Source: Phycisphaerae bacterium
Lineage (GTDB): Bacteria; Planctomycetota; Phycisphaerae; Phycisphaerales; UBA1924
DNA length: 64,000 bases
Assembly (NCBI GenBank): GCA_002706885.1
Contig: PAKY01000064.1
Coordinates: 1 to 64,000 of the forward strand
Direction: 5' to 3'
The notes under the pieces were generated by a model. That model was not told where the DNA came from and did not search any database. It saw only the letters and a list, made by a program, of their open reading frames with translations. Below are positions 1 through 29,363 of the stretch, one piece after another. A program made the position numbers and the translations under genes. Position 1 is the stretch's first letter. Each line of letters starts with the position of its first letter.

Positions 1-21
1 CCGCGACGCAGCCAGCGAGGC

Positions 22-1566
22 GTGAACGTGACGCCTCCGCGACCGACACGCCCGGCCGCCCAGCATCCGCCGCGACGATCGGCCGGACAGGCCACCGCCC
101 CCACCACCGCTCCACGCGCGGAGGCGGGCGAGATGTCGCCGCGTCCGGCGGCCGAGGGCCGTCCGTTCCGGCTCTGGGCGTGCGGCGCGCTCGATCTTCA
201 CGATCGCCTGTGGGCCACGCGCGGCGTTCAGGTGATCCGTGCAACAGCGGCGACAACGCCCGCGAAGGACGCATCGCTCTATCTGCTTCTTGCCGTCGAT
301 CAACTCGTGCGGTTCTCGCTGCCCGACGCCATCGCGCGTCTCCACTGGCTCAGCCCGGAGATCCTCAAGCTCCGGATCATCTCGAGCCCGTCGGAGAATT
401 ACCGCGAGAGCGTCGTGACCTCGACCGACGACGCGTTTCTCGGCTTTCGTCGCCAGTACGGACGGCGGGGCGGCGCGACGGGGCGGGCGTGGCTCACGAG
501 TTCCGCTGCGATCGCGCGAGTTTGGGCCGACGCGAACTCACAGGCGGAGGCGACGCACGCCATCCGTTCGCTCGCGAAGAAGCGTGCCTCGGCGCCGCTC
601 GAAACGCGCGGGATGAGCGTCGACCACGCTTCTGAGCGGGAGTTCGAAGCGTGGCTGGCCGACGCGATCGGACCGGAAGACCGGGTGGACGCTGCCTTCG
701 CGGGGGTGTTCGAACACGCCGAGGGCGTGTGGGTGCACTACGACGCGGAGGTCGATCCGTCGGCGACGCTCGTCGCGCCGCTCTGGATCGGCGCAGGTGC
801 CCGGATCGGGGCGGATGACCTGCTCGTTGGACCAGCGGTCGTCGAGGACTCGGATGGGCTTGAGCTGCAGCAACCGCCCGTCGACTGGATCGACATGCGG
901 TCGTACCACTGGGGGCTGCCGCCGCTGCGCGCGGGCGATCGCGGTCGATTGCTCGCGAAGCGGTGCTTTGACATCGTGTTCGGCCTCGCGGCGCTGCTGC
1001 TCACCGCGCCGCTCTTTCCGCTCACGGCGCTCGCGATCCTCATCGAGGACGGCCGTCCTGTATTCTTCACGCACACGAGACAGACGAGGGGCGGCGCCGA
1101 GTTCCCCTGCATCAAGTTCCGAACCATGGTGAAGAACGCCGAGGACATCAAGGCGAATCTCCAGAAAGCCAACCAGGCCGACGGCCCGCAGTTCTTCATG
1201 GACGATGACCCGAGGCTGCTCCGCGTCGGCAAGCTGCTCCGCAAGCTGCAGATCGACGAGCTCCCGCAGTTCATCAACGTGCTTCTCGGGCACATGAGCG
1301 TGGTCGGACCGCGCCCGAGCCCCGAGAAGGAGAATCAGTACTGCCCCGCGTGGCGGGAAGCACGGCTTAGCGTGCGACCGGGCGTGACGGGGCTGTGGCA
1401 GGTCCGCCGAACGCGGGCCGCCGACACCGACTTCCAGGAATGGATCCGCTACGACCTTCAGTACGTCCGGCACCAGTCGATGTGGCGTGACATCGGCATC
1501 ATCGTCGAGACGGTCTGGCGGATCTTCGTGAAACCGGCCGCGACACGTCAGAAGGAACGATCGTGA
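22..1566 (+). CDS. Exopolysaccharide-initiating sugar transferase (polyprenyl-phosphate sugar-1-phosphate transferase) with atypical N-terminus
   Basis: Predicted to move a sugar-1-phosphate from a UDP-sugar to undecaprenyl phosphate, the first membrane step of exopolysaccharide synthesis. The C-terminal ~200 residues are a clear bacterial sugar transferase domain: a membrane helix at about 313-341 starting KRCFDIVFG, then KFRTM, the catalytic-type IDELPQ near residue 411, SVVGPRP and RPGVTGLWQV. The first ~300 residues are not the usual multi-helix WbaP/EpsB region. They look soluble, and near 240-270 carry a short hexapeptide-like stretch (DPSATLVAPLWIGAGARIG), which suggests a degenerate nucleotidyltransferase/left-handed-helix module. 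The GTG at 22 is the first start in the window, but the frame is open to the window edge, so the true start may lie upstream. The 3' end overlaps the next gene by 4 bases (GTGA). The transferase domain is secure; the sugar is unknown. Confidence 0.88.
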   Translation: MNVTPPRPTRPAAQHPPRRSAGQATAPTTAPRAEAGEMSPRPAAEGRPFRLWACGALDLHDRLWATRGVQVIRATAATTPAKDASLYLLLAVDQLVRFSLPDAIARLHWLSPEILKLRIISSPSENYRESVVTSTDDAFLGFRRQYGRRGGATGRAWLTSSAAIARVWADANSQAEATHAIRSLAKKRASAPLETRGMSVDHASEREFEAWLADAIGPEDRVDAAFAGVFEHAEGVWVHYDAEVDPSATLVAPLWIGAGARIGADDLLVGPAVVEDSDGLELQQPPVDWIDMRSYHWGLPPLRAGDRGRLLAKRCFDIVFGLAALLLTAPLFPLTALAILIEDGRPVFFTHTRQTRGGAEFPCIKFRTMVKNAEDIKANLQKANQADGPQFFMDDDPRLLRVGKLLRKLQIDELPQFINVLLGHMSVVGPRPSPEKENQYCPAWREARLSVRPGVTGLWQVRRTRAADTDFQEWIRYDLQYVRHQSMWRDIGIIVETVWRIFVKPAATRQKERS

Positions 1567-4500
1567 AGGCACGCGTCAAGAAGCGACTTCTCCTCCTCGT
1601 AGCCGCCCTCGCCGTCGGGGCGGTGGGCCTGGGCGCCGTCTACTACATCCGCGGGCAGCAGCGCGCGGCGCTCGTCGAGCAATCGCTCGCGGACGGCATG
1701 GAGGCGTACGAGGCGGGCGACTACGAGGCCGCGGTCGACGACCTCGGCTATTACGTTGCGCGGAACAAGCAGGACAAGGACGTGCTCCGCGCGTTCGCCG
1801 ATTCCTTGCTGCGCACGCCCGACCCCAACGGCAAGCGTCACGCGCTCGCGATCCAGGTCTACGAGCTGATCATCGATGGCGAGACCGAGGTCGGCGAAGA
1901 GCACATCAAACTGCTGGAGCTCCTCGCGGGTTCGGGGCTCGCGTCGGAGCTTCTCGATCGATCGGATCGGTTCCTGGGGATGGATCCGGGCAACCGGGAG
2001 GCGACGTTCTTCAAGGTGCAGGCCCTCGCGTCGCTTGGGCGCCACGGCGACGCGGTCACGACCTCCGCTGAGTTCGCCGCCGAGAATCCTGACGACCTCG
2101 AGGCGTGGGTAACGGCGTACAGCGCCCTCCGCGCCGCCGACCGCACCGACGACGAGATCATCGAGGCGGCGCGCGAGGCCGCGTCGCGAGAGGGAGCGGG
2201 CCAGCTCGTCAGGGTGGCCGCCGCGGGGGTGCTTGCTGACTACAACCAGATCGACGAGGCGAAGCAGATCCTCGAGAGCATCGTCGGCGACCCCGCGACC
2301 CTCGAGCCGCGGGTCATGACCGCGGCGATCGCGACGGCGAATGCGCTCGCGGCGAAGGACGAATCGATGCGTCCGCTTGCGCAGTCGCTGCTGCGCGCGG
2401 CGGCGGACGACGACGCCCCCGAGGAACTCCGCGCCTACGCCGCGGGCTGGGCGTGGCGACACGGTGAGCTCGGCGACGTGCTCCGGATCATCGGGTCGCT
2501 CGGCGCGGCGCCCGCCGAGGCCGACACGACGACGCTCGGCCTATTGCTCCTGACGGTCAGCGAGGTCGAACAACTCGGCGTCGGCGACGTTGCGGAAGGC
2601 ATCGAGGCGGGCCCGATCCGCGAGGCCCTCGCGTCGCGACGTGATGACGATGCCTCGGCGTGGCTCCAGACCATCGATGGCTTCGAGCGCCTCCGCGCCG
2701 ACGAGATCATCGAGGCCCGGGACGCCTTCACCAGCGCGACCGATCGGAGCAGCGGCCTCGCGGCAGAGATCGCGACGTTCTTCAACGCCCAGGTCTGGCT
2801 CCGAACGGGCGAGCGGGCCCTTGCCAAGCAGCGGCTCGCGCGTCTCGGACGCGATCCGGCGTGGCGACGGGCGCGGTATGTGCTCAGCGGAGCGTTCATA
2901 GCGGAAGGCGCCTACGAGCAGGGGATCGGGCTCCTCGCCCGCGAACCGTCGCTTTCGACGTGGCGCGAGGGCGTCGAGCGGCTGACACTCGCGACCGTGG
3001 AGGCCGCGAGCCAGCCCGGCGCGGAACAGGCCAGGAAGCAGTTCGCGCTCGAGCTCAGCCGCAACTATGCCGAGCAGGTCGGCGACGCCCCCTTTGCGAT
3101 GTCGCTACGAGCACGCGCCGCGCTGGCCGCGGGCGTCACCGCCGACGGTCTCGCGATCGCGCGGTCGCTCCTTGAATCCGGCGGCATCGAGCAGATCGGC
3201 AGCGAGGGGCAGCGCCTCGCGGACGCCGTCGCCGCGGTCGACGGCGAACTCGCGGCGTCCCTGCGTGAGGCCGCGATGCGGGGCGGCGGCGAGCCCCGCG
3301 GCATCGTCGCTGACGCCCTCACGGCGGCGACTGAGGGCGAACCCGAACGCGGTCTGACGCTCCTGGAGTCGATCCCCGAGGATCGACGCGGCGAGTCGTA
3401 CGCCATCGCCTACGCCACTCTGCTCGACGCCACGGGCGCCGAGAACGCCACCGACGAGCTCGCTCGCGTTGCCGAGACCTATCCGGAGAGCGTCGATGCG
3501 CAGATCGTCCTGCTCCAGTCGGCCGCGGGCTGGGAGGATCTCGACGCCGTGCGCTCCGCGATCGCGCGGCTGAAGCGGCTGTCCGGACCGCAGGGCGCCA
3601 GGTGGCGGATCGCCGAGAGCCGTCTCCAGCTCACCGAGAACGAGTCGGACGCCGCGGCGAGCGCCGTGCTGCTCCAGATTCAGCGGGTGCTCGAGATCGA
3701 CGCCCGCAACGTTGATGCGCTCGTCATCGCCTCCACCGCGGCGCGGCGGCTTGGCGACGACGCCGAAGCGATCGATTACCTGGACCGCGCTCGCATCGCC
3801 GAGCCGAATCGAGCCGGTCTCTATCCCGCGCTCATTACGATGCTCCGTGCTCAGGGCAGGAACCCGGCCGCGATCGCGCGGCTCCGCGAGTTCGCAGAAG
3901 TGCCGATCGCGCAGCCCCGTCTCATGCGTCGGCGCGCCGAGATGCTCGACGAGATCGGTCTCGCGGAGCTCGCGATCGCGGACCGCGAACGCCTCGCCGC
4001 CTCAGGCGACACGGATGACCGAGCCGCCCTGATCGGGACGCTCGCGGCCGCCGGTCGCGTGGACGACGCGATGAGCCGACTCGAAGCGCTCCAGCAGCGC
4101 GGGGAGACGCTCTCATCCTCGGCCACGATCTCGCTGGCGTATGCGCTCGGGCGCGCGGGGCGGATCGCGAGCGGTCTCGAGTTGCTCGGGTCGCTCCCTG
4201 CGGACTCGACGGATCGCGACCAGACCGTTCTCCGCGCCGACTACCTTCTGGGGTTCGGACGCGGTGACGAGGCGCTGGGCGAGTTACACAAGTCGGTCGA
4301 GGCCGACCCGGCCAACGCCGAGGCCTGGATCCGACTGATCCGGACGCACGCTCTCTCGGGCAACGCCGACGAAGCACGTGACGCGGCGCAGAACGCCGCG
4401 ACTTCGGCGCCGTCCGATCATCGCCTCCCCGTTCTCGCGAAGGCATTCGCGTCGGAGGGATCGGAGGCCCGTATCCGCCGGTTCGCGGCTCTGGTGTATG

Positions 4501-5756
4501 CCACGATGAGCCGATCAGCGGACGACGAGGGAGACGCGGCCGCTGGCGCCGTGCGTCGGTTCCTCGACGGCGGCATGACCCTTGAAACGCTCGCGCAACG
4601 CCTCGACGACCTGACGCTCGAACGCCCCGACCGCTACCCGATCTACGGGTTGCTCGCGGAGGTGCATCTTGCACTGGGTGAACCGGACGATGCGATCGAG
4701 GTCTACCGCCTCGCCGAGAGCGTGCTCCCCAACGATCCGCGTCCCGTTCAGGACGCGGCGCGGACGCTCGCTGATCTCGGGCGCCACGACGAAGCCGCGC
4801 GAGCGGCCCGCGCGTGGGCGGAACGTGATCCCGCAAACAGCTGGCGGGCCACGCTCGCCGAGGCGATTGGTCTCACCGGTATCGGAAGCTTTAACCGCGC
4901 CGCGACCCTCTTCGGAGGAGAACGGCAGCGCCTGACGAGCGAACCTCGTCAGTTCGCCCGCGAACTGGAGGCATACGCGGCGGTACTCGGCAAGCTCGGG
5001 CGGGCCGCGGAAGCCAGCCGCCTCGTGCAGGAGACCGCGGCCGCTCCGGAGGTTTCGGGGTCTGTGGCGGCCGAGGCGGCCACAACTCTTGCGCAATCCG
5101 ATGCTTCCGGCGCACGGAGCCTCGTCGAGGACGCGACGAGCGCCCTTGTCTCGCAAAGGATTGGGCGGGCTCGGCTCGTCTACGCGTGGTACCAAATCGG
5201 CCTTCAGACCAACAACAAGGCCGACCTGACACGAGCGATCCAGGTCACCGAGTTCGATCCGAGCCGCCCGGAATCAGAGGTTGCCGAGACTTGGGCGTTG
5301 CTGGGATCGATCCACCAGCTTCTGGGCAACACCGATCAGGCCGAGTCGCTGCTCCGTGCCGCCGTCGACGCCGACCCGGATCAGGCGGACGTCAACAACA
5401 ACCTCGCGTACCTGCTGGTTCTCAAGGAGAAAGATTTCTCCGAAGCGATCCGTCTCGCCGAGGCGGCCATCCGGATCGGTCGCGAGCGGAACATGGCAGC
5501 GTCGGTCGTCCGGGAGTACTACGACACGCTGGGTCTCGCCCATCTCGGAGCGGGCCAGGCCGCCGACGCGGCCAACGCGTTCCGCGAGGGACTGTCGCTC
5601 GACCCGAACGCCGTGCACCTTGCTATCGGACTCGCGGAGTCGCTCGTTGCCATGAACGATTTCGATGAGGCCCGGCGTGTTCTGGATGGGCTTCCGAACG
5701 CGTTGGACGACGAGAATCAGCAGCGCGCCGCCAATGTCCGATCAATGCTGCCATGA
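1563..5756 (+). CDS. Giant membrane-anchored TPR-repeat protein of the exopolysaccharide/exosortase locus
   Basis: A 1397-residue protein with one N-terminal membrane helix (about residues 8-28, preceded by KARVKKR), so probably anchored in the inner membrane with the rest in the periplasm. The remainder is tetratricopeptide-like helical repeats throughout, with typical signatures such as GDYEAAVDDL near residue 52, LGEPDDAIEVYRLAE near 1040 and LGNTDQAESLLRAAVDADP near 1257. Its GTG start overlaps the stop of the sugar transferase (GTGA), so the two are translationally coupled. Large TPR proteins accompany EPS/PEP-CTERM loci in other bacteria (PrsT-type), where they are thought to scaffold export or assembly. 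That role here is inference from position and architecture; no catalytic motif is visible. Confidence 0.85.
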   Translation: MKARVKKRLLLLVAALAVGAVGLGAVYYIRGQQRAALVEQSLADGMEAYEAGDYEAAVDDLGYYVARNKQDKDVLRAFADSLLRTPDPNGKRHALAIQVYELIIDGETEVGEEHIKLLELLAGSGLASELLDRSDRFLGMDPGNREATFFKVQALASLGRHGDAVTTSAEFAAENPDDLEAWVTAYSALRAADRTDDEIIEAAREAASREGAGQLVRVAAAGVLADYNQIDEAKQILESIVGDPATLEPRVMTAAIATANALAAKDESMRPLAQSLLRAAADDDAPEELRAYAAGWAWRHGELGDVLRIIGSLGAAPAEADTTTLGLLLLTVSEVEQLGVGDVAEGIEAGPIREALASRRDDDASAWLQTIDGFERLRADEIIEARDAFTSATDRSSGLAAEIATFFNAQVWLRTGERALAKQRLARLGRDPAWRRARYVLSGAFIAEGAYEQGIGLLAREPSLSTWREGVERLTLATVEAASQPGAEQARKQFALELSRNYAEQVGDAPFAMSLRARAALAAGVTADGLAIARSLLESGGIEQIGSEGQRLADAVAAVDGELAASLREAAMRGGGEPRGIVADALTAATEGEPERGLTLLESIPEDRRGESYAIAYATLLDATGAENATDELARVAETYPESVDAQIVLLQSAAGWEDLDAVRSAIARLKRLSGPQGARWRIAESRLQLTENESDAAASAVLLQIQRVLEIDARNVDALVIASTAARRLGDDAEAIDYLDRARIAEPNRAGLYPALITMLRAQGRNPAAIARLREFAEVPIAQPRLMRRRAEMLDEIGLAELAIADRERLAASGDTDDRAALIGTLAAAGRVDDAMSRLEALQQRGETLSSSATISLAYALGRAGRIASGLELLGSLPADSTDRDQTVLRADYLLGFGRGDEALGELHKSVEADPANAEAWIRLIRTHALSGNADEARDAAQNAATSAPSDHRLPVLAKAFASEGSEARIRRFAALVYATMSRSADDEGDAAAGAVRRFLDGGMTLETLAQRLDDLTLERPDRYPIYGLLAEVHLALGEPDDAIEVYRLAESVLPNDPRPVQDAARTLADLGRHDEAARAARAWAERDPANSWRATLAEAIGLTGIGSFNRAATLFGGERQRLTSEPRQFARELEAYAAVLGKLGRAAEASRLVQETAAAPEVSGSVAAEAATTLAQSDASGARSLVEDATSALVSQRIGRARLVYAWYQIGLQTNNKADLTRAIQVTEFDPSRPESEVAETWALLGSIHQLLGNTDQAESLLRAAVDADPDQADVNNNLAYLLVLKEKDFSEAIRLAEAAIRIGRERNMAASVVREYYDTLGLAHLGAGQAADAANAFREGLSLDPNAVHLAIGLAESLVAMNDFDEARRVLDGLPNALDDENQQRAANVRSMLP

Positions 5757-5897: not shown

Positions 5898-6431
5898 ATG
5901 CGAACCACGTGTACCGCGATCATGGCGCTGACCTCGAGCGCTGCTCTTGGAGCTCCCACGCTGACCGCAACGCCTGGAACGGGCGGGGCTGACGGCTGGA
6001 ACACGGCCGTTTGGCCGGCCATGACGTCCGGCGTGCGGTCGGACACCGTTCAGATCAGCTTCCTTGGCAGCAGTCCTGTCCTGACGATCACGAACGAAGA
6101 CTCGGGCGTGACCCGTGGTCAGGCGTTCGTTATCCCGATGAACCAGATCGATGGATGGCAAACGTTCACCGAAACGCTCGGTGGTTCGAACGCCACTCCG
6201 ACGGGCGAGACGACGAGTGAGCAGGGTGGCCAGATCTACGCCGGCAGCCCGTTGATGGGCGCGGGGCCGCAGTCGCCGCAGGGTCAGCTCCTGTCGGGGT
6301 CTCTCGCGATGCTTCCGCCAGCGGGGACGGCCGTCCCCTTGCCTTCGCCGGCAACGCTGGCGGCGATCGGAATCGGTGGACTGTTGTTCGGGTCCCGCCG
6401 GCGTATCTCCGCCAAATCGATCAACCCGTAA
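5898..6431 (+). CDS. Small exported protein with PLP-type (PEP-CTERM-like) C-terminal sorting tail
   Basis: A 177-residue secreted protein of unknown function. The ATG at 5898 gives a signal peptide (MRTTCTAIMALTSSAALGA) and is preceded by a purine-rich GGGAAGAAAG; a GTG two codons upstream is also possible. The C-terminus has VPLPSPATL, a hydrophobic stretch, then SRRR, which is the three-part layout (Pro motif, membrane helix, basic end) of exosortase/PEP-CTERM substrates. Unlike its three relatives in this window, it continues about eight residues beyond the basic cluster. The middle is Thr/Ser/Gly-rich with no recognised domain. It sits downstream of the TPR gene after 141 bases of comparatively AT-rich DNA, so it may have its own promoter. 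Confidence 0.72.
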   Translation: MRTTCTAIMALTSSAALGAPTLTATPGTGGADGWNTAVWPAMTSGVRSDTVQISFLGSSPVLTITNEDSGVTRGQAFVIPMNQIDGWQTFTETLGGSNATPTGETTSEQGGQIYAGSPLMGAGPQSPQGQLLSGSLAMLPPAGTAVPLPSPATLAAIGIGGLLFGSRRRISAKSINP

Positions 6432-6476
6432 GACTTGAAAAAAGTTGAAGATATCGCGCTTCACTTTGAAAATTGG

Positions 6477-6487
6477 TCAGGTAGACT
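6477..6487 (+). promoter_or_regulatory. Shared 11-base motif upstream of a sorted-protein gene (copy 1)
   Basis: TCAGGTAGACT lies 123 bases before the ATG at 6611, within the AT-richer 6432-6490 stretch that also has TTGAAA at 6466. A near-identical TCAGGTAGTCT precedes the other sorted-protein gene at 9182. It may be part of a promoter, but no convincing paired -35/-10 could be placed. Treat it as a motif to test. Confidence 0.22.
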
Positions 6488-6610
6488 AAAGTGGTCAATG
6501 TTCCGGCGTTGGTCTGCGCCGGATGAGTGAGAGTGAGTGAGAAGCTCAGGTCAGAGGATTAGGGTGTCCCTGGATGGACGCCCTCAAGTAGTGGAAGAGG
6601 AGTGTGTCCG

Positions 6611-7264
6611 ATGAAGAATCTCGCGCTTGCTGGCATCGTTGCCGCGGTCAGTGGAACGGCGATGGCCGCGTCCACTGAAGTCCAGTTCGACTTCCAGGGT
6701 ATGGATATCCAGGCCACCGACGGCATGGGCAACAACACCGCTTTCGGCGGCGTGTCCCACACCGGCGCCCTGCGTGTTGAGGGCAGCACCGCCCTCGGCG
6801 CTTCGCTCGACATCACCGAGGACCGCGGTGCGGTTCCCTCGGCCGAGGTCGGCATGGGCACGGCGACCGACTTCACCTTCGACATGACCGTCCTGCTCAG
6901 CAACGGCGCCGTCACCGGCGGTTCGCTGCTGATCTCGATCGGCGCCGACACCTACACCGCTGACATCGTCTCGGGCATCGGTTCGGTCCGCCAGTCGGCC
7001 GGCCAGACCCCCCGCTTCGAGGTTGACGGTCTGACCTTCGCTGGCGCGTTCAGCGGCACGACCTTCGCCGGCATCGACGTTTCCCGCTTCGTCGCCCCGC
7101 TCGGCGGCAGCTTCGTGAACTTCGAGTACCGCCCGAACGGCGCGGGCTTCGACGGCCAGGCCGACACCGAAGTCTTCGTCGTGATCCCGCTCCCGACGAC
7201 CGTCGGCCTCGCTGGCGCCGGCCTCCTCGGCGTCGCGGGCATCCGTCGTCGCCGCTCGGTCTGA
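6611..7264 (+). CDS. Exported protein with IPLP-type (PEP-CTERM-like) C-terminal sorting tail
   Basis: A 217-residue exported protein of unknown function. The ATG at 6611 has a good ribosome site (AGGAG at 6598-6602) and gives a clear signal peptide, MKNLALAGIVAAVSGTAMAA. The body is Gly/Thr/Asp-rich and probably all-beta (for example VQFDFQGMDIQ, TFDMTVLLSNG). The end is IPLPTTVGLAGAGLLGVAGIRRRRSV: a Pro motif, a small hydrophobic helix and a four-Arg cluster, as in exosortase substrates, where the tail would be cut and the protein transferred to the surface. Upstream starts at 6602 and 6604 are less likely because they overlap the ribosome site. A strong terminator follows at 7361. Confidence 0.78.
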   Translation: MKNLALAGIVAAVSGTAMAASTEVQFDFQGMDIQATDGMGNNTAFGGVSHTGALRVEGSTALGASLDITEDRGAVPSAEVGMGTATDFTFDMTVLLSNGAVTGGSLLISIGADTYTADIVSGIGSVRQSAGQTPRFEVDGLTFAGAFSGTTFAGIDVSRFVAPLGGSFVNFEYRPNGAGFDGQADTEVFVVIPLPTTVGLAGAGLLGVAGIRRRRSV

Positions 7265-7360
7265 GCTTTCGGCTCACGATCAGAGGTCGGGTAGATCCGG
7301 CTTCAAAACGGTGAAGGCGACGCTGTTCGCGCCACCCCACCTTCAAGCGATCTCAACGAG

Positions 7361-7388
7361 GGCCATCCCGATCAGGGATGGCCTTTTT
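7361..7388 (+). terminator. Rho-independent terminator after the sorted-protein gene
   Basis: Perfect 9-base stem GGCCATCCC / GGGATGGCC with a 5-base GATCA loop followed directly by TTTTT. It lies 97 bases after the stop of the 6611 gene and between two convergent genes. Only the plus-strand side has a T run, so it ends plus-strand transcription. Confidence 0.9.
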
Positions 7389-7403
7389 CGTTGGGTGATT
7401 CGG

Positions 7404-8609
7404 TTAGGGACAGCCCTGCGCGTAGCCCTGAAGGAACATCACCACGTCGGCGATGTCGAACACACCGTGCGGGCCCGCGTAGTCGACCCGAGCGTCGCTC
7501 GCGGCGAAGAAGGTCAGGAACGCGATCACATCGGCGAGATCAACTTGACCGAACGGGGCCGCAAGGTCCACCGGTGAACAGGGGACGGCGCCGAAGGTGT
7601 TGCCGCCCATGTCAGTGGTGGCGCCGGATCGATCGGCGGGCGCGTTGTTCGAGAATCGCGAGCCACCGAACACGACCTGGCCATCGCCGCCGCCGTGAAG
7701 GGCGCCGCTGTTCGCCGCGGCGTCGTTGCCGACGACGTCGGTATCGATGATGGCGATGACGGACCCGTCACCGGCGTAGGCCGCGGCGCCTTCGCTTGCG
7801 GTGTTGAATCGGAACTCGGTAGCGGTGACGTTCACGGTCGCGCCGTCCTCTGCGTAGAGGGCGCCGCCCATGCCCGAGACGTTGCCCGACATCGAGCCAC
7901 CCGTGAGCTCGAGGCCGCCGTTGACGACCGCGATCGCGCCCCCGACACCCGCGCTGTTGGTCGCGAAGGTTGAGTCGACGAGGGTGACGAGCGTCGGCTC
8001 GAAGCCCTCCGGCGCCACCATCAGGCCGCCGCCGAGATCGGCCAGGTTCGACTTGAACGTGCAGGACTGGAGCGTGGGGTGCGAGCCGCACGACGCAAAG
8101 GCGCCGCCGCCCGAATCCGCGACGTTGTCCTTGAACGTCACGCGACGGAGGGTCGGCTCGCCGATGAGGAACGCGCCGGCGCCGTTGGTGGCGTGGTTGT
8201 CGAGAATGATCGCATCCTCGAGCGTGACGCTGCCGCGGAGGAAGGCGCCGCCGCCGTTCTCACTCGAGCCGCCCCGGACGGTCAGACCGCGGATGACCGT
8301 CGCGGCCTCCTCGCTGTCCGACAGGACCAGCACGACGGGACCGGTCCCGCCGCCATCGACGACGGTGTTCGGAGCGCCGTCGACGCCGACCACCGTCAAT
8401 GCCTTGTTGCGAATCGCGAACCCGCCGTATGTGCCGGCGGACACACGGATCTCCCCCCCCGGCTCGGCCGCGTCAACGGCGGCCTGAATCGTTGCATAGT
8501 CCTGCGGGACGAGGTAGAGAGACTCCGCCTGTCCCGCGGTCGCGACAAGACTGGTCGCCGCGACGCTCGCCCAGCCGAGGCTGAGCCCGAAACGAGTAAG
8601 CTGTGACAT
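7404..8609 (-). CDS. Secreted Pmp-like parallel beta-helix protein with C-terminal GC-type dockerin
   Basis: A 401-residue exported protein. The chosen ATG (8609) begins MSQLTRFGLSLGWASVAAT..., a signal peptide ending near AGQAES, with a CGGGGG site upstream. Frames further upstream lack signal-like sequence. After YATIQAAVDAAEPGGEIRV, the standard entry of secreted right-handed beta-helix proteins, come repeated GGGAF / FxDN-type rungs like those of polymorphic membrane proteins. The last ~60 residues hold two contiguous dockerin-like halves bounded by Cys: PCSPVDLAAPFGQVDLADV and GVFDIADVVMFLQGYAQGCP. This dockerin type is characteristic of Phycisphaerae; its binding partner is not known to me. 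The protein may bind or modify polysaccharide, but no catalytic residues can be named. Confidence 0.82.
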   Translation of the reverse strand: MSQLTRFGLSLGWASVAATSLVATAGQAESLYLVPQDYATIQAAVDAAEPGGEIRVSAGTYGGFAIRNKALTVVGVDGAPNTVVDGGGTGPVVLVLSDSEEAATVIRGLTVRGGSSENGGGAFLRGSVTLEDAIILDNHATNGAGAFLIGEPTLRRVTFKDNVADSGGGAFASCGSHPTLQSCTFKSNLADLGGGLMVAPEGFEPTLVTLVDSTFATNSAGVGGAIAVVNGGLELTGGSMSGNVSGMGGALYAEDGATVNVTATEFRFNTASEGAAAYAGDGSVIAIIDTDVVGNDAAANSGALHGGGDGQVVFGGSRFSNNAPADRSGATTDMGGNTFGAVPCSPVDLAAPFGQVDLADVIAFLTFFAASDARVDYAGPHGVFDIADVVMFLQGYAQGCP

Positions 8610-9181
8610 GGAATGCCCCCGATGTGCCCTTAACTCCTGAAGTGGCGCGGTTACGGGGTGCTCTTTGGTTGTCGCGCCCGCCGTCGTGGCAGGCTGAAGC
8701 AGAGACATGGCTAGCCGTGAAAATTCACTCATTCTCCCGGCTGGATACACGCAAGCCCAGGATGTGGTCTCCACACTTCCCTCTCTCGTTCCAACTGATC
8801 CAGCGTTAACAATGCGAAACGATCCCCACGCTCGCCAGACGGATTTCGGCGTTCGATGCACCGAAAGTCCACCTGAAGCGGATGAGTCGCGCCTTCCGTC
8901 GACCCCCCCGCCCGCGAACGCCGCATTTCTCCGGACGTAGCGAACGCGCGAAGGCGTAGCCTAACGTGGACCCGCCTCGAAAGAAACCGGGCAAATCTCT
9001 CCATTTTCTCTGTCGTCCCCAGAGTGACGATCAATCTCGTCGGGCGTCCGTAAGCCACTCATTTGCATGAGATTGCGATAGGTGGATCTGGATCGATTCC
9101 CCGCCTTCAGGTAGTCTCCTCGGGGACGGCAATGGGTCTGTTTTCCCATAGCTCGACGCGGAAGAGAGTGGAGGGTTCGGG
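8610..9181. other. 572-base divergent intergenic region
   Basis: Lies between the beta-helix gene (minus) and a sorted-protein gene (plus), so it should hold both promoters. No strong -35/-10 pair stands out on either strand. The only item noted is TCAGGTAGTCT at 9107-9117, matching a motif at 6477 upstream of another sorted-protein gene. No credible small gene, RNA or terminator was seen. Confidence 0.4.
9107..9117 (+). promoter_or_regulatory. Shared 11-base motif upstream of a sorted-protein gene (copy 2)
   Basis: TCAGGTAGTCT, differing in one base from the copy at 6477. It sits 64 bases before the ATG at 9182, compared with 123 bases for the other copy. Significance is unproven because two copies of 11 bases could arise by chance in this much sequence. 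Confidence 0.22.
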
Positions 9182-9925
9182 ATGCGCCATCAGGTCAGCA
9201 TGGGAGCGATCGCGGGGACTCTGGCGATCGCGGGCGTCGCTCAGGGCGGCACGACCACGATCGAGTTCACGATCCAATCGGATACGCACGACAACTTCCG
9301 ATTCTCCGTCTTCCACCGCGCCAACCAGAGCCCGGGCAACTCGGACTCCAACGGCGACGGTTTCGACGACCACAACGGCGCCAACGCCCTTCAGGGCTTC
9401 ACCGGCTCGTTCATTGCGGTCTACGACGACATCGCGGAGACGCTCGAGTTCACCAGCTTCAGCGGGGATGTCGGCGGAACCGCCTTCGGTCTCGGCGCGG
9501 GCGAGAACACCCTCAATGTCGGCGCCGCCGATGGCCCTGAGGGGCGCGTCGTGAGCGGCGCTGGCGCCCAGGGCCCCCGAGCGGGCGAAGCCGCGACTGC
9601 CGGCCTTTCGCTCAGCCTTGGCGGCCAGGACGTGCAATTCTACTTCGACGACTTTGCTTGGAATTCGCTCGCCAACCAGTTCTTCAACGGCGACATCCCG
9701 GGCGGCGCGCCCGGCTCGGGCGACGCGTTCGGGCTCGGGCTCTGGGGGCTGGCGAGCAACGCGGGTGATCCGCTCGGATTCGGTGGCGCGTACCTTGGCA
9801 TCGATCTCTGGGCGACCGGCACGGTCATCTCGACCGGCTCGTCAGTGCCGCTTCCGAGCCCCGCTGCGCTCGGCGGCGCCGGCGTTTTTGGTGTCATTCT
9901 CTCGCGACGTCGTCGCGATCGCTAA
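9182..9925 (+). CDS. Exported protein with VPLP-type (PEP-CTERM-like) C-terminal sorting tail
   Basis: A 247-residue exported protein of unknown function. The ATG follows GGAGGG with suitable spacing, and the N-terminus is a signal peptide (MRHQVSMGAIAGTLAIAGVAQGG). The mature part looks all-beta and has an Asp/Asn-rich stretch, NSDSNGDGFDDHNG, at about residues 57-70 that resembles a calcium-binding loop. The tail VPLPSPAALGGAGVFGVILSRRRRDR has the Pro motif, hydrophobic helix and Arg cluster of exosortase substrates and is almost the same as those at 6431, 7264 and 10705. Surface display after tail processing is inferred from family knowledge. Confidence 0.78.
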   Translation: MRHQVSMGAIAGTLAIAGVAQGGTTTIEFTIQSDTHDNFRFSVFHRANQSPGNSDSNGDGFDDHNGANALQGFTGSFIAVYDDIAETLEFTSFSGDVGGTAFGLGAGENTLNVGAADGPEGRVVSGAGAQGPRAGEAATAGLSLSLGGQDVQFYFDDFAWNSLANQFFNGDIPGGAPGSGDAFGLGLWGLASNAGDPLGFGGAYLGIDLWATGTVISTGSSVPLPSPAALGGAGVFGVILSRRRRDR

Positions 9926-10087
9926 GCGTTGATGGAGCAATGACCTCGGCCCGCGGGCCGTCAGAGGACGACGCGTGGTAGCCGATAATTCGCGGAGATT
10001 CGCTTTGGAGGGGTAGCCCCCCTGTCGATAGCGTGAGCGATTCGATTTCGATACCGCCCGAATAAGGCGTAGGGAAGGAAAGAATAC

Positions 10088-10705
10088 ATGCGTGGAAACA
10101 TCCTTTGTGCGCGCGCCGTCTGCGCGGGCTCTGTGTGTGGCTCGGCGTTGTCGGCGGCCGCCGCGCCGACGCCGATCGCGATCACCTTCGAACCGTCGGA
10201 CGGGATCTTCCTCCCGCCCGCCACCGTCGTCGACAATCAGTACCTCGCGACACAGTTCATCGACTTCAACGCGTCGGCGAACATCGAGCTCGACGCGGAA
10301 TCCTCGACCGACTTCTTCGAGTCGCGGGCCGCGGGCTCGTTCCTCACGAGCGTGACGCTCGAGATGACCTCGGCGCCGGGCCGCGCGTTCGAGTACCTGT
10401 CGTTCGACCTCGGGATCCTCCAGCAGCAGACGATCCTCGTCCAGGCGTATGACGCCATGGGCGTCGTGGTGTTCTCGCAGTCGTACACCGACAACGTCCC
10501 GGGCGAGGCCGACTTCAACGTCGACATCAGCGGCGTCGGCGCATTCACCCGGGTGACACTCGCCGACAGCGGCAGCACCTTCGGCGTCGACAACATCTTC
10601 GGCTCGACCGAGATCCAGGGCGGAGCGATCCCGCTTCCGCACCCCGCCGCGCTCGCCTCGGCGGGCATCTGCGGACTGGTGTTCGTCCGTCGTCGGCGCG
10701 GCTGA
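10088..10705 (+). CDS. Exported protein with IPLP-type (PEP-CTERM-like) C-terminal sorting tail
   Basis: A 205-residue exported protein of unknown function. The ATG at 10088 follows a purine-rich AGGGAAGGAAAG, and residues 1-26 form a signal peptide ending near SAAAAP. The body (ITFEPSDGIF..., VTLEMTSAPGRAFEYLSFDLG) looks like a single beta-sandwich domain of the kind common in PEP-CTERM proteins. The tail IPLPHPAALASAGICGLVFVRRRRG closes the protein with the Pro motif, helix and four Arg. It is the fourth such gene in 5 kb and is followed by a clear terminator. Confidence 0.76.
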   Translation: MRGNILCARAVCAGSVCGSALSAAAAPTPIAITFEPSDGIFLPPATVVDNQYLATQFIDFNASANIELDAESSTDFFESRAAGSFLTSVTLEMTSAPGRAFEYLSFDLGILQQQTILVQAYDAMGVVVFSQSYTDNVPGEADFNVDISGVGAFTRVTLADSGSTFGVDNIFGSTEIQGGAIPLPHPAALASAGICGLVFVRRRRG

Positions 10706-10833: not shown

Positions 10834-11391
10834 TCAGAACGGGCTGTCGAGATCGGCGAGCGTCGGCCACGAGGCGTCGCGGTCGTTCACGACAGGCGCG
10901 TCGTTCCCGCCGCCCCAGTCGATGCCGAGCGCCGGGTCGTTCCAGAGCAGTCCGCCCTCGTCGTCGCGGCTGTAGAAGCCGTCCACCTTGTAGAGCACGT
11001 GGCAGTCTGGGGTGAGAGTCTTGTACCCATGGGCGATCCCCTTGGGAACGAAGAGCTGACGGGCGTTGTCGCCCGAGAGCTCCACCGCGACATGGCGCCC
11101 GTAGCTCGGAGAACCGCGACGGATGTCCACGGCCACATCGAGAACGGATCCATGTGTCACCCGGAGGAGCTTCGACTGCGCCGAGGGCGGCGCCTGGAAA
11201 TGCAGCCCGCGCACGGTGTTCGGCTCAGCGGAGAAAGCGTGGTTGTCCTGCACGAACTCGACATCGATCCCAGCGGCCGCGAAGTCGCGCGAGCTGTAGG
11301 TCTCGCAGAACCAGCCCCGTTCGTCGCCGAATCGGCGTGGCTCGATGATGAACACACCCTCGATCTCGGTCGGCGTCACCTCGATCGGCAC
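10834..11391 (-). CDS. rfbC: dTDP-4-dehydrorhamnose 3,5-epimerase
   Basis: Third enzyme of dTDP-L-rhamnose synthesis, epimerising C3 and C5 of dTDP-4-keto-6-deoxyglucose. The 185-residue length fits the family. Family motifs are visible: GVFIIEPRRFGDERGWFCETY at the start (residues 12-32), QDNHAFS and VRGLHFQ with the catalytic-region His, SKLLRVTHGSVLDVAVDIR, and FVPKGIAHGYKTL. The start is a GTG, with one base between it and the rfbB stop, so it is the last gene of an rfbA-rfbD-rfbB-rfbC operon on the minus strand. Confidence 0.96.
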   Translation of the reverse strand: MPIEVTPTEIEGVFIIEPRRFGDERGWFCETYSSRDFAAAGIDVEFVQDNHAFSAEPNTVRGLHFQAPPSAQSKLLRVTHGSVLDVAVDIRRGSPSYGRHVAVELSGDNARQLFVPKGIAHGYKTLTPDCHVLYKVDGFYSRDDEGGLLWNDPALGIDWGGGNDAPVVNDRDASWPTLADLDSPF

Positions 11392-11392
11392 G

Positions 11393-12421
11393 TCAGCGTC
11401 CCCCGTACTGCTTGGCGTAGTAGTCGCGATAGGCGCCGCTCTTGACGCTCCGCCACCACGCCTCGTTGTCCTTGTACCACGCGACGGTGCTCTCCAACGC
11501 CCCAGGCCACGCGGACCACTGCGCCTTCCAACCGAGATCAGATGCCGCCTTCGACGAATCGATCGCGTATCGGCGGTCGTGGCCGAGGCGATCGGGCACG
11601 TACTTGATCATCTCCTCTCCGTGACCGAGGATCTCGAGGATCGCGTGCGTGAGCTCGAGGTTCGATCGCTCGTTGTCAGCGCCGAGGTTGTAGACCTCTC
11701 CCGGTCGGCCCTTCTCCAGCGTCGCGATGATGCCTTCCGCGTGATCGTCGACATGGATCCAATCGCGGACGTTCTTGCCGTCGCCATAGAGCGGAACCTT
11801 CTCGCCCTCGATCAGGTTGGTGACGAAGAGCGGGATTACCTTCTCAGGGAACTGGAACGGACCGAAGTTGTTCGAGCATCGCGTCGTCATCACGTTCAAG
11901 CCGAACGTGTGGTGGTAAGCCCGCGCGAACAGGTCGCCGCCGGCCTTGCTCGCCGAATAGGCGCTGTTCGGCTCGAGCGGTGAGCTCTCGGTGAACCGCT
12001 CGTCGGGGTTGTCGAGCGAGAGGCTTCCGTAGACCTCGTCGGTGCTGACGTACACGAGCGGCAGCCCGTCCGCTCCCGGCCCGCGCCGCCACGCCTCGAG
12101 CAGACGCTGCGTTCCGACGGTGTTCGATGCGACGAACGGAGCGGGGTCCATGATCGACCGATCGACGTGGCTCTCGGCCGCGAGGTGCAACACGCCGTCG
12201 CAGCCCTTGACGGCCTCCGTCACCGCCGCGTCGTCGCCCACGTCCGCGCGGATGAACGAGTACCGCGGATCGTCCTCGAACGGCGCGAGGTTCTCGAGGT
12301 TCGCCGAGTACGAGAGCGAATCGAGGACGACCACTTCGTAGTGATCGCGCTCCTTGAGCATCCGGGCCACGAGATTGGAGCCGATGAAACCCGCTCCGCC
12401 GGTTACCAGGACTCGTTTCAT
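11393..12421 (-). CDS. rfbB: dTDP-glucose 4,6-dehydratase
   Basis: NAD-dependent short-chain dehydrogenase-type enzyme that makes dTDP-4-keto-6-deoxyglucose from dTDP-glucose. The 342-residue protein shows GGAGFIGSN for cofactor binding at residues 8-16, HLAAESHVDRS, STDEVYG (the Asp-Glu catalytic pair), YSASKAGGD with the Tyr-Lys pair, and NNFGPFQFPEKVIPLF. It begins with ATG overlapping the rfbD stop by 4 bases (ATGA), so translation is coupled. Confidence 0.97.
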   Translation of the reverse strand: MKRVLVTGGAGFIGSNLVARMLKERDHYEVVVLDSLSYSANLENLAPFEDDPRYSFIRADVGDDAAVTEAVKGCDGVLHLAAESHVDRSIMDPAPFVASNTVGTQRLLEAWRRGPGADGLPLVYVSTDEVYGSLSLDNPDERFTESSPLEPNSAYSASKAGGDLFARAYHHTFGLNVMTTRCSNNFGPFQFPEKVIPLFVTNLIEGEKVPLYGDGKNVRDWIHVDDHAEGIIATLEKGRPGEVYNLGADNERSNLELTHAILEILGHGEEMIKYVPDRLGHDRRYAIDSSKAASDLGWKAQWSAWPGALESTVAWYKDNEAWWRSVKSGAYRDYYAKQYGGR

Positions 12422-13290
12422 GCCTGTCGATCCTCCGTCGCCTCCGTCGCGTCGCGGAGCGCCGCGCGGGTTTCTTCATGCCAGTGGGCCGGATCGCCCA
12501 GAGCCTCGTCGGTCGCCGATGTGTCGAGCACGCTGTAGGGCGGCCGCTTGGCGGGCCGCGGGAACGCGTCTGTTCCGCACGGCTCGACCCGGGCGTTTGA
12601 GCGCGTGACTCCGGCGATGAACTTCGCGAAGCCGTGCCAGGAACACTCGCCGCCGTCGGTCGAGTGGAACATGCCGCGTTCGCCCCTCGCGAGCAGCGCG
12701 AGCGACCGATCGGCGAGCTGACGCACCGAGCTCGGTCGACCGACCTGATCGCTCACGACCTTCAGCTCGTCGCGCTCGGCGAGCAGCCGCGCGATCGTCA
12801 GGACGAAGTTCTTGCCCCATGCGCCATAAAGCCAGCTCGTCCGGACGCAGATCCAATCCGCGTCGCTCTCCTCGAGCGCCCTTTCCCCCACCGCCTTTGA
12901 GCGTCCGTACGCGTTCAGGGGAGCCCGCGGGTGACCCGTCGTGTACGGCGTCGTCGACAGGCCGTCGAACACGTAGTCGGTGCTGAAGTGAACGAGCGTC
13001 GCGCCACCGACGGCGCAGGCCTTTGTCAACCGAGCGACGCCCTCGCCGTTGACGGCGGTCGCCTCGTCCTCGGCGGCTTCGGCGCCGTCGACGTCGGTCC
13101 AAGCGGCGCAGTTCACGACGGCCGCGGCGCCGAGGTCCGTGATCACTGTCTCCGGGATTCGCCCCGCGAGATCGATCGTGTCGCGACCGACGGCGAGGGT
13201 CCGGACGCCCTCCGATTCGAGGCGTCGGACCACGGCGCGGCCGAGCATGCCGCCTGCGCCGAGGACCGCGATCGGTTGCTCGAGTGCCAT
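12418..13290 (-). CDS. rfbD: dTDP-4-dehydrorhamnose reductase
   Basis: Final enzyme of dTDP-L-rhamnose synthesis (NAD(P)H-dependent reduction of the 4-keto group). The 290-residue length is normal. Motifs: GAGGMLGRAV near the N-terminus (nucleotide binding), VVNCAAWTDVDGAE, HFSTDYVFDG, YGRSKAVGE (Tyr-Lys catalytic pair) and RTSWLYG. It lies between rfbA (24 bases upstream) and rfbB (4-base overlap). Confidence 0.96.
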   Translation of the reverse strand: MALEQPIAVLGAGGMLGRAVVRRLESEGVRTLAVGRDTIDLAGRIPETVITDLGAAAVVNCAAWTDVDGAEAAEDEATAVNGEGVARLTKACAVGGATLVHFSTDYVFDGLSTTPYTTGHPRAPLNAYGRSKAVGERALEESDADWICVRTSWLYGAWGKNFVLTIARLLAERDELKVVSDQVGRPSSVRQLADRSLALLARGERGMFHSTDGGECSWHGFAKFIAGVTRSNARVEPCGTDAFPRPAKRPPYSVLDTSATDEALGDPAHWHEETRAALRDATEATEDRQA

Positions 13291-13314
13291 CCGCGCCCCC
13301 GCCGGTTCAGACGC

Positions 13315-14085
13315 TCAGGCGCCGATTTCAAACTTCACGGCGCCATCCACCCGATTCGCGCCCGCCTCGGCGACGAGATTCGAGGCGCGGTGCAGGCTTT
13401 CGATCGTGCCCGCGTCCGTCCACCAACCGTCGAGGAGGTTGTACCTGAGTTCGCCCCGCTCGAGGTAGGCGTTGTTGACGTCGGTGATCTCGAGCTCGCC
13501 CCGATCGCTCGGCTTCTGCTGCTTGGCGATCTCGAAGACGGTCTCGTCGAAGAAGTAGATCCCCGTCACCGCGTAGTTGCTCGGCGGATCGCTCGGCTTC
13601 TCGAGGATCCGCTTCACGGGCGAGTCGCCCGGCGCCCCCTCGAATTCGATCACGCCGAACCGCTGCGGATCGGGCACTTCCTTCAGGAGCACCCGCGCGC
13701 CGGACGGCTGGACGTAGAACTCGGCCGCGGCCTGGCGGATGTTCTTCTCGATGATGTTGTCACCGAGAACCACGCAGATCTTCTCACCGTCCGCGAAATC
13801 CTCGGCGAGCTTGAGGGCGTCGGCAATACCACCCTCCCCCTCCTGATAGGTGTATTCGAGGTGGCGGATGCCGAGGTGCTTGCCGTTCTTCAGCAGCTTG
13901 AGGAAGTCCCCCGCGTGCTCACCCCCGGTGACGATCAGGATCTCGTCGATCGCCGCGTTGAGCAGTGTCTGGATCGGGTAGTAGACCATGGGCCGGTCAT
14001 ACACCGGCAGAAGGTGCTTGTTCGTGACGAGGGTCATGGGCCGCAGACGCGAACCGAGACCACCCGCGAGAATGACGCCCTTCAT
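13315..14085 (-). CDS. rfbA: Glucose-1-phosphate thymidylyltransferase (short form)
   Basis: Makes dTDP-glucose from dTTP and glucose-1-phosphate and so feeds the three following genes. The ATG at 14085 gives MKGVILAGGLGSRLRPMT and has AAGGAG eight bases upstream; a start 27 bases further up would run through that ribosome site. Other motifs: NKHLLPVYDRPMVYYPI, VVLGDNI and EKPSDPPSNYAVTGIYFFD. At 256 residues it is shorter than the ~290-residue E. coli enzyme because it ends soon after the catalytic domain (WWTDAGTIESLHRA), as in short-form family members. First gene of the rhamnose operon. Confidence 0.95.
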   Translation of the reverse strand: MKGVILAGGLGSRLRPMTLVTNKHLLPVYDRPMVYYPIQTLLNAAIDEILIVTGGEHAGDFLKLLKNGKHLGIRHLEYTYQEGEGGIADALKLAEDFADGEKICVVLGDNIIEKNIRQAAAEFYVQPSGARVLLKEVPDPQRFGVIEFEGAPGDSPVKRILEKPSDPPSNYAVTGIYFFDETVFEIAKQQKPSDRGELEITDVNNAYLERGELRYNLLDGWWTDAGTIESLHRASNLVAEAGANRVDGAVKFEIGA

Positions 14086-14546
14086 CAGGTGTACTCCTTC
14101 CCCTTCTTCCACCTCGGACCGACCGGTTCGCCCGAAGCGTAGTTCAAATCAGTCGATCCCGTGGGCCGGCGCTCGACCGCCCGCCTTCGTTGGGGAACAT
14201 CGACACATCTGATCCGCGCCTCCCACGAGACAGGCGTGTTTCTCGATGACAGTGGCGTTTCCGTCGCGCCAAGGGGGGTCGGTCCCGGAGTTATCAGCCA
14301 GAGCGATTGGCGTCCTCGAGCGGGGCGATGGTCCGGGTCGGCGCGATGGCCCGAAAAGCCGCAAATACAGTCATTCTCGGATCTTCCCGGGGCCGATTGT
14401 TCCTCGTACATTGGTCGTGAGGGGGGGATGGCGACGTCATTCCGACCATGGGGGGCGGAGACCGCCGCGCGTTTCGCACCTTGTCTCTCCGGGTCACCGC
14501 CGGCCGTAGTTGCCCGGCGGTCAGTCGATGCCAAGGAGGTGTCCGC
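14086..14546. other. 461-base divergent intergenic region
   Basis: Separates the rhamnose operon (minus) from the malectin/beta-helix gene (plus) and should hold both promoters. A strong ribosome site AAGGAGGT at 14533-14540 belongs to the plus gene. Open frames exist through the region because of the high GC, but none has a plausible start, signal or domain. No convincing promoter hexamers or terminator could be assigned. Confidence 0.4.
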
Positions 14547-28425: not shown

Positions 28426-29363
28426 CCGAAGCGCCCACCATCCTCCTCGTCTCCCCCTGCCGCGATGAGATCGACCACGTCGAAACCACCATCAAGAGCA
28501 TCCTCGCGCAGACCCTCCGGCCCACGAAGTGGATCATCGTCGACGATGGCTCCACCGACGGCACCCAGGACGTCCTCGCTCGGTACGCGAACGAGGTCGA
28601 CTTCATCGAAGTCGTCTCAAAGCCCGATACGGGCGAACGCCGCGTCGGCCCGGGCGTGATCGAGAGCTTCTACGTCGGCCTCGAGTCCGTCGACTGGCGA
28701 AGCTACGAGTTCATCTGCAAGCTCGACGTCGACCTCGATCTTCCCCCCACCTATCTCCAGGGCCTCGTCGACAAACTCCGCGCCGACCCCAGCCTCGGCA
28801 CATGCTCGGGCAAGCCGTGGTTCCGCAGACCAGGAACCGACGAGCGCCTCCCGGAGCCCTGCGGCGACGAGATGTCCGTCGGCATGACCAAGTTCTACCG
28901 CTCGACCTGCTTCGACCAGATCGGCGGCTTCGAACGCGCCGTCATGTGGGACGGCATCGACTGCCACCGCTGCCGCATGCTCGGCTGGCGTGCCCGCGCC
29001 TTCAACGACGCTGACCTCGCCTTTGAACACCTCCGCCCCATGGGCTCCAGCCACAAGAGCATCTGGACCGGTCGCCAACGCCACGGCCGCGGCCAGTGGT
29101 ACATGGGTACCAGCCCGTGGTACCTCTTCGCCAGCGCCGCCAGCCGCCTCTTCAAGTTCCCCGTTGTCATCGGCTCGGCCGCGATGGTCTACGGGTATCT
29201 CGCCGCCGCGTTCACGGGCAAGCCCCGCCTCGCCGACCCCGCGACCCGCAAGGCCATCCGTCGCTACCAGTGGCTCGCCCTGACCAAGGGCAAGCCCTGG
29301 CTCGCGGACTTCGCCGAGCCTCGATCGCCAAACGCGACCACCGCCGCGGGACCGACGACATGA
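28422..29363 (+). CDS. Glycosyltransferase family 2
   Basis: A 313-residue GT-A enzyme: ILLVSPCRDEIDHVETTIKSIL, WIIVDDGSTDGTQDVL, FICKLDVDLDLPPTYL (DxD-type metal site), FYRSTCFDQIGGF and WDGIDCHRCRMLGWRARAF. A weak hydrophobic segment near residues 240-262 may associate it with the membrane. The GTG start overlaps the fusion gene's stop (GTGA), and its own stop overlaps the sulfotransferase start (ATGA). Acts within the same EPS pathway; sugar unknown. Confidence 0.88.
   Translation: MTEAPTILLVSPCRDEIDHVETTIKSILAQTLRPTKWIIVDDGSTDGTQDVLARYANEVDFIEVVSKPDTGERRVGPGVIESFYVGLESVDWRSYEFICKLDVDLDLPPTYLQGLVDKLRADPSLGTCSGKPWFRRPGTDERLPEPCGDEMSVGMTKFYRSTCFDQIGGFERAVMWDGIDCHRCRMLGWRARAFNDADLAFEHLRPMGSSHKSIWTGRQRHGRGQWYMGTSPWYLFASAASRLFKFPVVIGSAAMVYGYLAAAFTGKPRLADPATRKAIRRYQWLALTKGKPWLADFAEPRSPNATTAAGPTT

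Follow-up and report, generated by a model that had tools for sequence, protein, structure and literature searches.

A PLP-type C-terminal tail in a Phycisphaerales exopolysaccharide locus and its probable exosortase partner behind a contig break

Four small exported proteins encoded near the start of contig PAKY01000064.1 of a Phycisphaerae bacterium (order Phycisphaerales; assembly GCA_002706885.1) end in a common C-terminal tail, and their locus raises the question of which enzyme, if any, acts on it. The window, meaning the whole stretch of DNA that was analysed, is the left 64 kb of this contig (C64, 67,302 bases); the assembly comprises 3.57 Mb in 127 contigs and is 91% complete. A preliminary description of the window had read the tails as those of exosortase substrates, of the kind known from PEP-CTERM proteins, in an exopolysaccharide (EPS) setting that contained no exosortase. 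We consider it very likely that the four proteins are substrates of a type I exosortase from the same locus, which is split between two contigs, and that a separate type II exosortase most likely serves a second class of tails with the motif VPAP.

The four genes and their tails are listed below. Scores are those of each tail on profile A2, built from six tails of this genome including the four of the window, and E values come from a left-out profile, for which seven tails from elsewhere in the genome were used and those of the window excluded.

5898..6431, forward strand: small exported protein 1, with PLP tail
6330..6407, forward strand: PLP tail of protein 1 (A2 50.5 bits; left-out E 1.2e-4)
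6602..7264, forward strand: small exported protein 2, with PLP tail; genome G065 has homologues within its unbroken type I locus (up to 137 bits, 42% identity)
7181..7258, forward strand: PLP tail of protein 2 (A2 46 bits; left-out E 3.8e-8)
9182..9925, forward strand: small exported protein 3, with PLP tail
9842..9922, forward strand: PLP tail of protein 3 (A2 53.3 bits; left-out E 8.4e-10)
10088..10705, forward strand: small exported protein 4, with PLP tail
10625..10702, forward strand: PLP tail of protein 4 (A2 56.6 bits; left-out E 1.6e-10)

The open reading frames (ORFs) that end at 6431, 7264, 9925 and 10705 close with VPLPSPATLAAIGIGGLLFGSRRRISAKSINP, IPLPTTVGLAGAGLLGVAGIRRRRSV, VPLPSPAALGGAGVFGVILSRRRRDR and IPLPHPAALASAGICGLVFVRRRRG, respectively. 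Each has [IV]PLP, then a helix of 16-17 small or hydrophobic residues, then RRR(R), and when aligned the four agree fully at P-L-P, at one Leu, at two Gly and at three Arg positions. In protein 1 the Arg run has three residues only, and eight further residues follow it. Among 966 stop-to-stop ORFs of the window, the left-out profile places these four at ranks one to four, with the next ORF at E 0.016; the resemblance between the tails is therefore not due to chance, and the tail layout given in the preliminary description is confirmed. Judged by eye, all four N-termini show a basic start, a hydrophobic stretch and an Ala-rich site. The tails have the PEP-CTERM architecture of Pro motif, transmembrane-like helix and C-terminal basic cluster, and the genome provides the exosortase and the EPS context that go with it. 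Established models respond weakly. In searches of NCBIfam and Pfam with the four whole proteins, all PEP-CTERM-like matches fell under cut-off: TIGR02595 gave 15.4 bits for protein 1 (cut-off 16) and did not list proteins 2-4, and the best score to PF07589 was 18.9 bits (cut-off 20.7). Protein 1 is borderline for TIGR02595, since its tail alone scores 19.3 bits and a six-frame search gives 17.2.

The idea that the PLP tail is confined to the four window genes was rejected, as other tails were matched elsewhere in the genome. The genome holds two classes of tail, 12 of PLP type and, at E 1e-5, 42-43 with PxP, mostly VPAP. The [IV]PLP class mostly has 15-17 residues before the Arg run, and its 12 members, two of them PTP, are matched from the first model position; the VPAP class mostly has 14 residues before RRRR. 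A second cluster of three PLP-tailed genes, two with near-identical ends, lies at C55:2912-5301 (G000). Of 49 distinct own-genome matches to TIGR02595, A2 and A3 with a locus assigned, 47 have the end of the gene 21-27 codons beyond the point where the match begins, so that frequent internal occurrence of the tail could also be rejected. The two exceptions are an internal TIGR02595 match at locus L026 (17.2 bits, cut-off 16, E 0.057) and an A2 match at L066 (16.3 bits). The genome search proposed in the preliminary description accordingly returned many C-terminal matches, together with two exosortases whose catalytic Cys, Arg and His are invariant, and what was to count against the idea, a genome without an exosortase or a tail found internally in unrelated proteins, did not appear beyond these two weak matches.

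For counts across genomes, alignment A4 was tried and rejected as too permissive, VPAP tails scoring on it from model position 5, and A2 and A5 were used for this reason. A5 includes tails taken from the neighbourhood of type I exosortases, which makes it partly circular; A2 served as the check.

No exosortase is encoded within the 64-kb window, as the preliminary description had noted. PF09721 (cut-off 25.7) finds two in the genome, both on other contigs: type I on C82 (168.5-168.6 bits) and type II on C120 (143.9-147.5 bits). The type I enzyme (C82, 27697-28584) is a single-domain protein of 290 residues, followed by a separate EpsI-like gene (PF11984 48.1 bits, cut-off 26.1; TIGR02914 30.6 bits, cut-off 42.8). 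The type II enzyme has 659 residues and a fused DUF3485/EpsI domain; the EpsI part is a separate ORF in many relatives, and the fusion is therefore limited to this genome and a number of others. On TIGR02602 (cut-off 105.55) type I scores 116.9 bits and type II 102.2, just under. Both enzymes stay under the cut-offs of all named exosortase classes: on the XrtA model TIGR03109 (cut-off 208) type I has 117.8 bits, and on the XrtD model TIGR04152 (cut-off 400), the best-scoring named model for type II, type I scores 105.9 and type II 168.2. The type II locus on C120 (L035) encodes a Wza-like protein, the exosortase-EpsI fusion, a TPR protein of 1588 residues and a tyrosine kinase.

The two types fall into clearly separate clades. 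In a tree of 98 rows, the branch leading to 60 type II rows has support of 99/98 and that leading to 36 type I core rows 100/100, with a few long branches of unsure placement. The tree leaves out the second exosortases of G040 and G038, the third of G060, both of G048, and also three that neither own enzyme matched, namely L120 (G041), L261 (G046) and the weakest one in G045. Tail variants track this tree only roughly, and some of its rows are labelled by PLP tails of their genome rather than of their own locus. One genus carries a second, strongly diverged type I exosortase (G022 C4:676949, G106 C2:423456, G132 C1:314923; 209-212 bits), which in G022 has its own EPS transferase.

An exosortase is present in all 61 genomes of a set comprising our own, its family and its order. 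Comparison with both own enzymes assigns type II to 59 of them, with G038 and G048 not settled. Type I is patchy, occurring in 53 of 120 family genomes, one of which (G083) contributes a contig-end fragment, and PLP tails keep company with it. With the wider model, PLP tails are found in 33 of the 53 type I genomes versus one of the 67 others (p 1.5e-14), so that 33 of 34 PLP-positive genomes have type I, the exception being G063. With the model of own tails only, counting alignments that start at model position 1-2, the figures are 29/53 versus 0/67 (p 1.4e-13). Eight genomes that matched A2 only from position 5 were dropped from this count (G005, G027, G089, G090, G102, G123, G138 and G143), and keeping them gives 31/53 versus 6/67; the tails of G005, G089, G123 and G143, when read, were PAP/PSP/PTP forms, while those of the other four were left unread. 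Counted by genus, PLP tails occur in 23 of 34 with type I and one of 40 without (p 6.6e-10). These counts rest on at most 70 first-look candidates per genome and may fall short of the full set of PLP tails. VPAP tails were present in all 37 family genomes examined for them, with or without type I.

Common ancestry might produce such a pattern without any functional tie. We mapped type I presence onto a tree of 37 type II proteins, a proxy for descent whose bootstrap support is not fully settled, and found 14 gains or losses, at least eight of them forced by supported branches; type I presence is not clustered on this tree. Shared lineage by itself can therefore hardly account for the co-occurrence.

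Gene order in relatives carries the argument from co-occurrence to linkage. Profiles of the locus genes give one main type I order in the numbered genomes: exosortase I, then EpsI, the chain-length/tyrosine kinase, the sugar transferase, the giant TPR protein and the tail proteins, often with rfb genes. A second sample consists of 80 loci, most under Phycisphaer- or Planctomycet- names, a few named only bacterium and one Vicinamibacteraceae; it is not an independent sample, because its records partly coincide with our numbered genomes. In it the strict succession EpsI-kinase-transferase follows the exosortase in 52 of the 64 loci where 6 kb or more could be read, and transferase then TPR lies downstream in 54 of the 61 with at least 8.5 kb. 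In the 29 loci of this sample that have a tail after the TPR gene, the first one is PLP in 23, PTP in three, PVP in two and PEP in one. Among the numbered genomes, G014 shows the complete order uninterrupted, with four PLP genes and with rfbB, rfbD and rfbA inverted as in the window, and the homologues of protein 2 in G065 likewise sit after the TPR gene. Of 35 type I regions read in relatives, 18 contain PLP tails, versus none of 41 type II regions (our own included), with the slices mostly 20 kb for type I and 16 kb for type II and part of the type I regions breaking off, at a contig end or slice end, before the tail genes. Order in the type II regions is different, mostly Wza, exosortase II, another TPR and a kinase, with Wza-exosortase II-TPR found in most of the 41.

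The window holds these other genes of the locus:

2..25, forward strand: final seven codons plus stop of an ORF truncated at the left contig end, recognised from its reading frame and a 4-base GTGA overlap with the next gene
22..1566, forward strand: EPS-initiating polyprenyl glycosylphosphotransferase, 514 residues (PF02397, bacterial sugar transferase, 205.2 bits)
1563..5756, forward strand: giant PrsT-like TPR protein, 1397 residues (TPR_19 108.4 bits)
7404..8690, reverse strand: parallel beta-helix protein that ends in a GC-type dockerin (NF041540 43.2 bits, cut-off 29; PF13229 30.7 bits)
10834..14112, reverse strand: rfbC, rfbB, rfbD and rfbA for dTDP-rhamnose, named from a reading of the sequences with no family search; they close the locus on its far side, which is also their place in G014

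The transferase and the giant TPR protein are the neighbours that the preliminary description had reported. The former scores 250.3 bits on TIGR03025, under the cut-off of 295.55, and is the only match to an EPS transferase in the whole assembly at E 1e-5; the latter scores 96.5 bits on TIGR02917 (PrsT), under the cut-off of 312.2 although this is its best named model. The beta-helix gene, nested among the four tail genes on the opposite strand, is unrelated to them and has no PLP tail; a homologue adjoins PLP tails in relative G139 (188 bits). Homologues of rfbA, rfbB and rfbD occur in several type I loci of relatives.

What the window lacks at its left edge is what contig C82 has at its right end. 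There the exosortase (27697-28584), EpsI (28616-29317) and a kinase that begins at 29314 and continues to the contig end all run toward that end, and the kinase stops 36-61 residues short of the ends of 14 of 15 relatives and 86 short of the remaining one. The window begins with the seven codons and stop at 2..25, which overlap the transferase start by four bases, and a 4-base overlap of kinase and transferase is likewise found in several relatives, such as L199 and L212-L215. These codons would complete the chain-length/tyrosine-kinase gene whose start lies on C82, and the simplest reading is that the two contig ends are neighbours with about 90-160 bp missing between them. A search for sequence overlap between the ends of C82 and C64 found none, which counts against this reading. 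The gene order of relatives, the kinase cut at the end of C82 and the start of the window at the only transferase place the exosortase next to the window, and the "missing" type I exosortase very probably adjoins it immediately upstream, behind the contig break. The preliminary description had suggested a sorting variant with its own enzyme elsewhere; co-occurrence and synteny argue for an enzyme of its own, and gene order points to a place next door instead.

A pairing of type I with PLP, which co-occurrence and linkage suggest, has to face a number of observations that weigh against it. Genome G063 of the family (69% complete) has a PLP tail and only type II scoring at E 1e-5; we read this PLP gene and saw no type I locus gene around it. 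Genome G059 (94% complete, 5% contamination), which belongs to a different family within the order, is in the same position at the same threshold. Its PLP tail lies 1.3 kb short of a contig end, and type I is present in four further genomes of the genus. Conversely, the PLP model finds nothing at cut-off in 20 of the 53 type I genomes. Nine of these carry VPLP/IPLP, most with a longer helix (G012, G017, G082, G085, G102, G104, G129, G131, G139), three carry PTP/PAP tails downstream (G065, G079, G118), none was seen downstream in six (G028, G092, G096 and G142, and the short slices of G067 and G077), and two were left unread (G122, G140). PLP is therefore not a strict rule for type I loci. Tails resembling the other class lie in or beside some type I loci (our own at C82:25109, G009, G010, G022, G065, G118), with a VPAP gene 2.6 kb from our own type I exosortase, and APAP, APVP, APEP and VPEP tails lie upstream of four loci of the gene-order sample. 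The linkage of VPAP to type II is loose, with few tails of either class in the 41 type II regions, and the link between them therefore rests on distribution. Variant tails also stand at type I loci L307, L311 and L310, in the form of VPLPPAAW with a longer helix in G012 and [VI]PTP in G079 and G065.

These observations would suit a view in which PLP is a mere flavour of an ordinary PEP-CTERM tail, processed together with VPAP tails by a universal type II enzyme. Within the set of 61 genomes type II is indeed present wherever PLP tails were read, save for G038 with its unsettled type; G059 and G063 show PLP tails with type II as the only exosortase in the assembly; VPAP-like tails adjoin some type I loci, and PAP forms are among the tails of those in G065 and G118. 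Against it, all 29 register-checked PLP genomes of the family have type I, with none among the 67 genomes without it, across at least eight changes, and these tails are present in half of the type I regions and in no type II region. We regard this view as improbable, though it deserves to be kept in mind.

The motif invites a different assignment, in which the four are VPLPA-CTERM proteins and their enzyme is the XrtD-like type II exosortase. VPLPA-CTERM is paired with XrtD, the motif here can start VPLP, and XrtD is the named model that type II matches best. Yet TIGR03370 gives 11 bits for protein 2 against a cut-off of 25.35 and does not list the other three, type II reaches less than half of the XrtD cut-off, and the distribution and linkage of PLP tails point to type I. 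Membership in VPLPA-CTERM/XrtD was rejected on the TIGR03370 and TIGR04152 scores, and we see hardly any chance that it holds; the closeness to VPLPA-CTERM claimed in the preliminary description stands for the motif and fails by model, and the evidence favours an enzyme that is not XrtD-like. Equally far-fetched in our view is the proposal that the tails are plain C-terminal membrane anchors on which no exosortase acts. Such a tail would by itself make a plausible anchor, and its processing is a prediction; but the motif is conserved among otherwise different proteins, it keeps to the C-terminus in nearly all matches, and it follows an exosortase gene across genomes. The exosortase-substrate design that the preliminary description proposed is supported by these C-terminal matches and by the presence of two exosortases.

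With type I as the partner, the locus would work as one unit in two halves, C82 supplying the exosortase, EpsI and the cut kinase, and the window supplying the transferase, the giant TPR protein, the four substrates and the rhamnose genes. The four proteins would be made with an N-terminal export signal and cross the inner membrane, where the [IV]PLP-helix-Arg tail would hold each of them. The type I exosortase, with its catalytic Cys, Arg and His, would recognise the PLP motif and cut the tail, and the cleaved protein might then be passed to the cell surface or to the polysaccharide made by the same locus. This course, from export through retention by the tail to exosortase processing that leads to EPS-related release or attachment, is proposed by analogy with PEP-CTERM/exosortase systems (PMC1569441, PMC12188702). 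The independent type II exosortase, fused to EpsI and located in another EPS locus, would most likely serve the roughly 42 VPAP-type tails.

The two enzymes differ near the active site. A comparison of 32 type I with 59 type II sequences shows the Cys, Arg (VNxxR) and His (FHxxSGW) columns 100% conserved; it omits seven of the 98 tree rows, most of which are long branches. The residue after the catalytic Cys is Asn in 32 of 32 type I sequences versus Ser in 93% of the type II sequences; further contrasts in the segment following the Cys are Leu versus Phe and Leu versus Ala, and four residues after the conserved Arg type I has Thr and type II Leu. These are candidates for specificity and no more. 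A search for a solved structure of an exosortase relative found none.

We tentatively suggest, at somewhat less than an even chance, that these planctomycetes run two insulated sorting channels, each with its own exosortase, EpsI, chain-length/kinase protein, giant TPR protein, tagged proteins and polysaccharide, and that the tag, in its motif (PLP versus PAP) and its helix length, evolves together with residues of the enzyme, for instance that following the catalytic Cys. If so, the enzyme/tag pair would be a natural experiment on exosortase specificity. Many related genomes have repeatedly kept or lost one of two enzymes, and one tail class follows, giving well-replicated data on exosortase recognition. 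To our knowledge, assignments of exosortases to tails have mostly been inferred from family models. In the four whole proteins this tail class escapes every NCBIfam model at its cut-off, and a partner is now proposed for it; the case also suggests that naming by motif, with VPLPA and XrtD carried over, would have led to the wrong enzyme. A search of the open-licence literature found no report of a type I/PLP pairing in Phycisphaerales.

Comparison with known systems shows the system of the window to be an unnamed variant of PEP-CTERM/exosortase and not VPLPA-CTERM/XrtD. Like the PEP-CTERM/exosortase (EpsH) system of XrtA type, it has exported proteins with a Pro motif, a helix and a basic end, a Cys/Arg/His exosortase, and an EPS locus in which an EpsI-like protein, a chain-length/kinase protein, a sugar transferase and a giant TPR protein are neighbours. 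It differs from the XrtA type in having, in place of PEP, [IV]PLP with 16-17 residues before the Arg run and a type I enzyme far under the XrtA cut-off. With VPLPA-CTERM/XrtD it shares the V-P-L-P motif and a second tail class with an enzyme of its own; in contrast to that system, it does not reach TIGR03370, and its probable PLP partner is a single-domain exosortase with a separate EpsI, the XrtD-like fused enzyme of the genome being type II and not that partner. VPDSG-CTERM, which is paired with XrtC, likewise combines a lineage-specific motif with its own exosortase class, but the motif is different and the type I enzyme scores 39.8 bits on TIGR04151 against a cut-off of 300.

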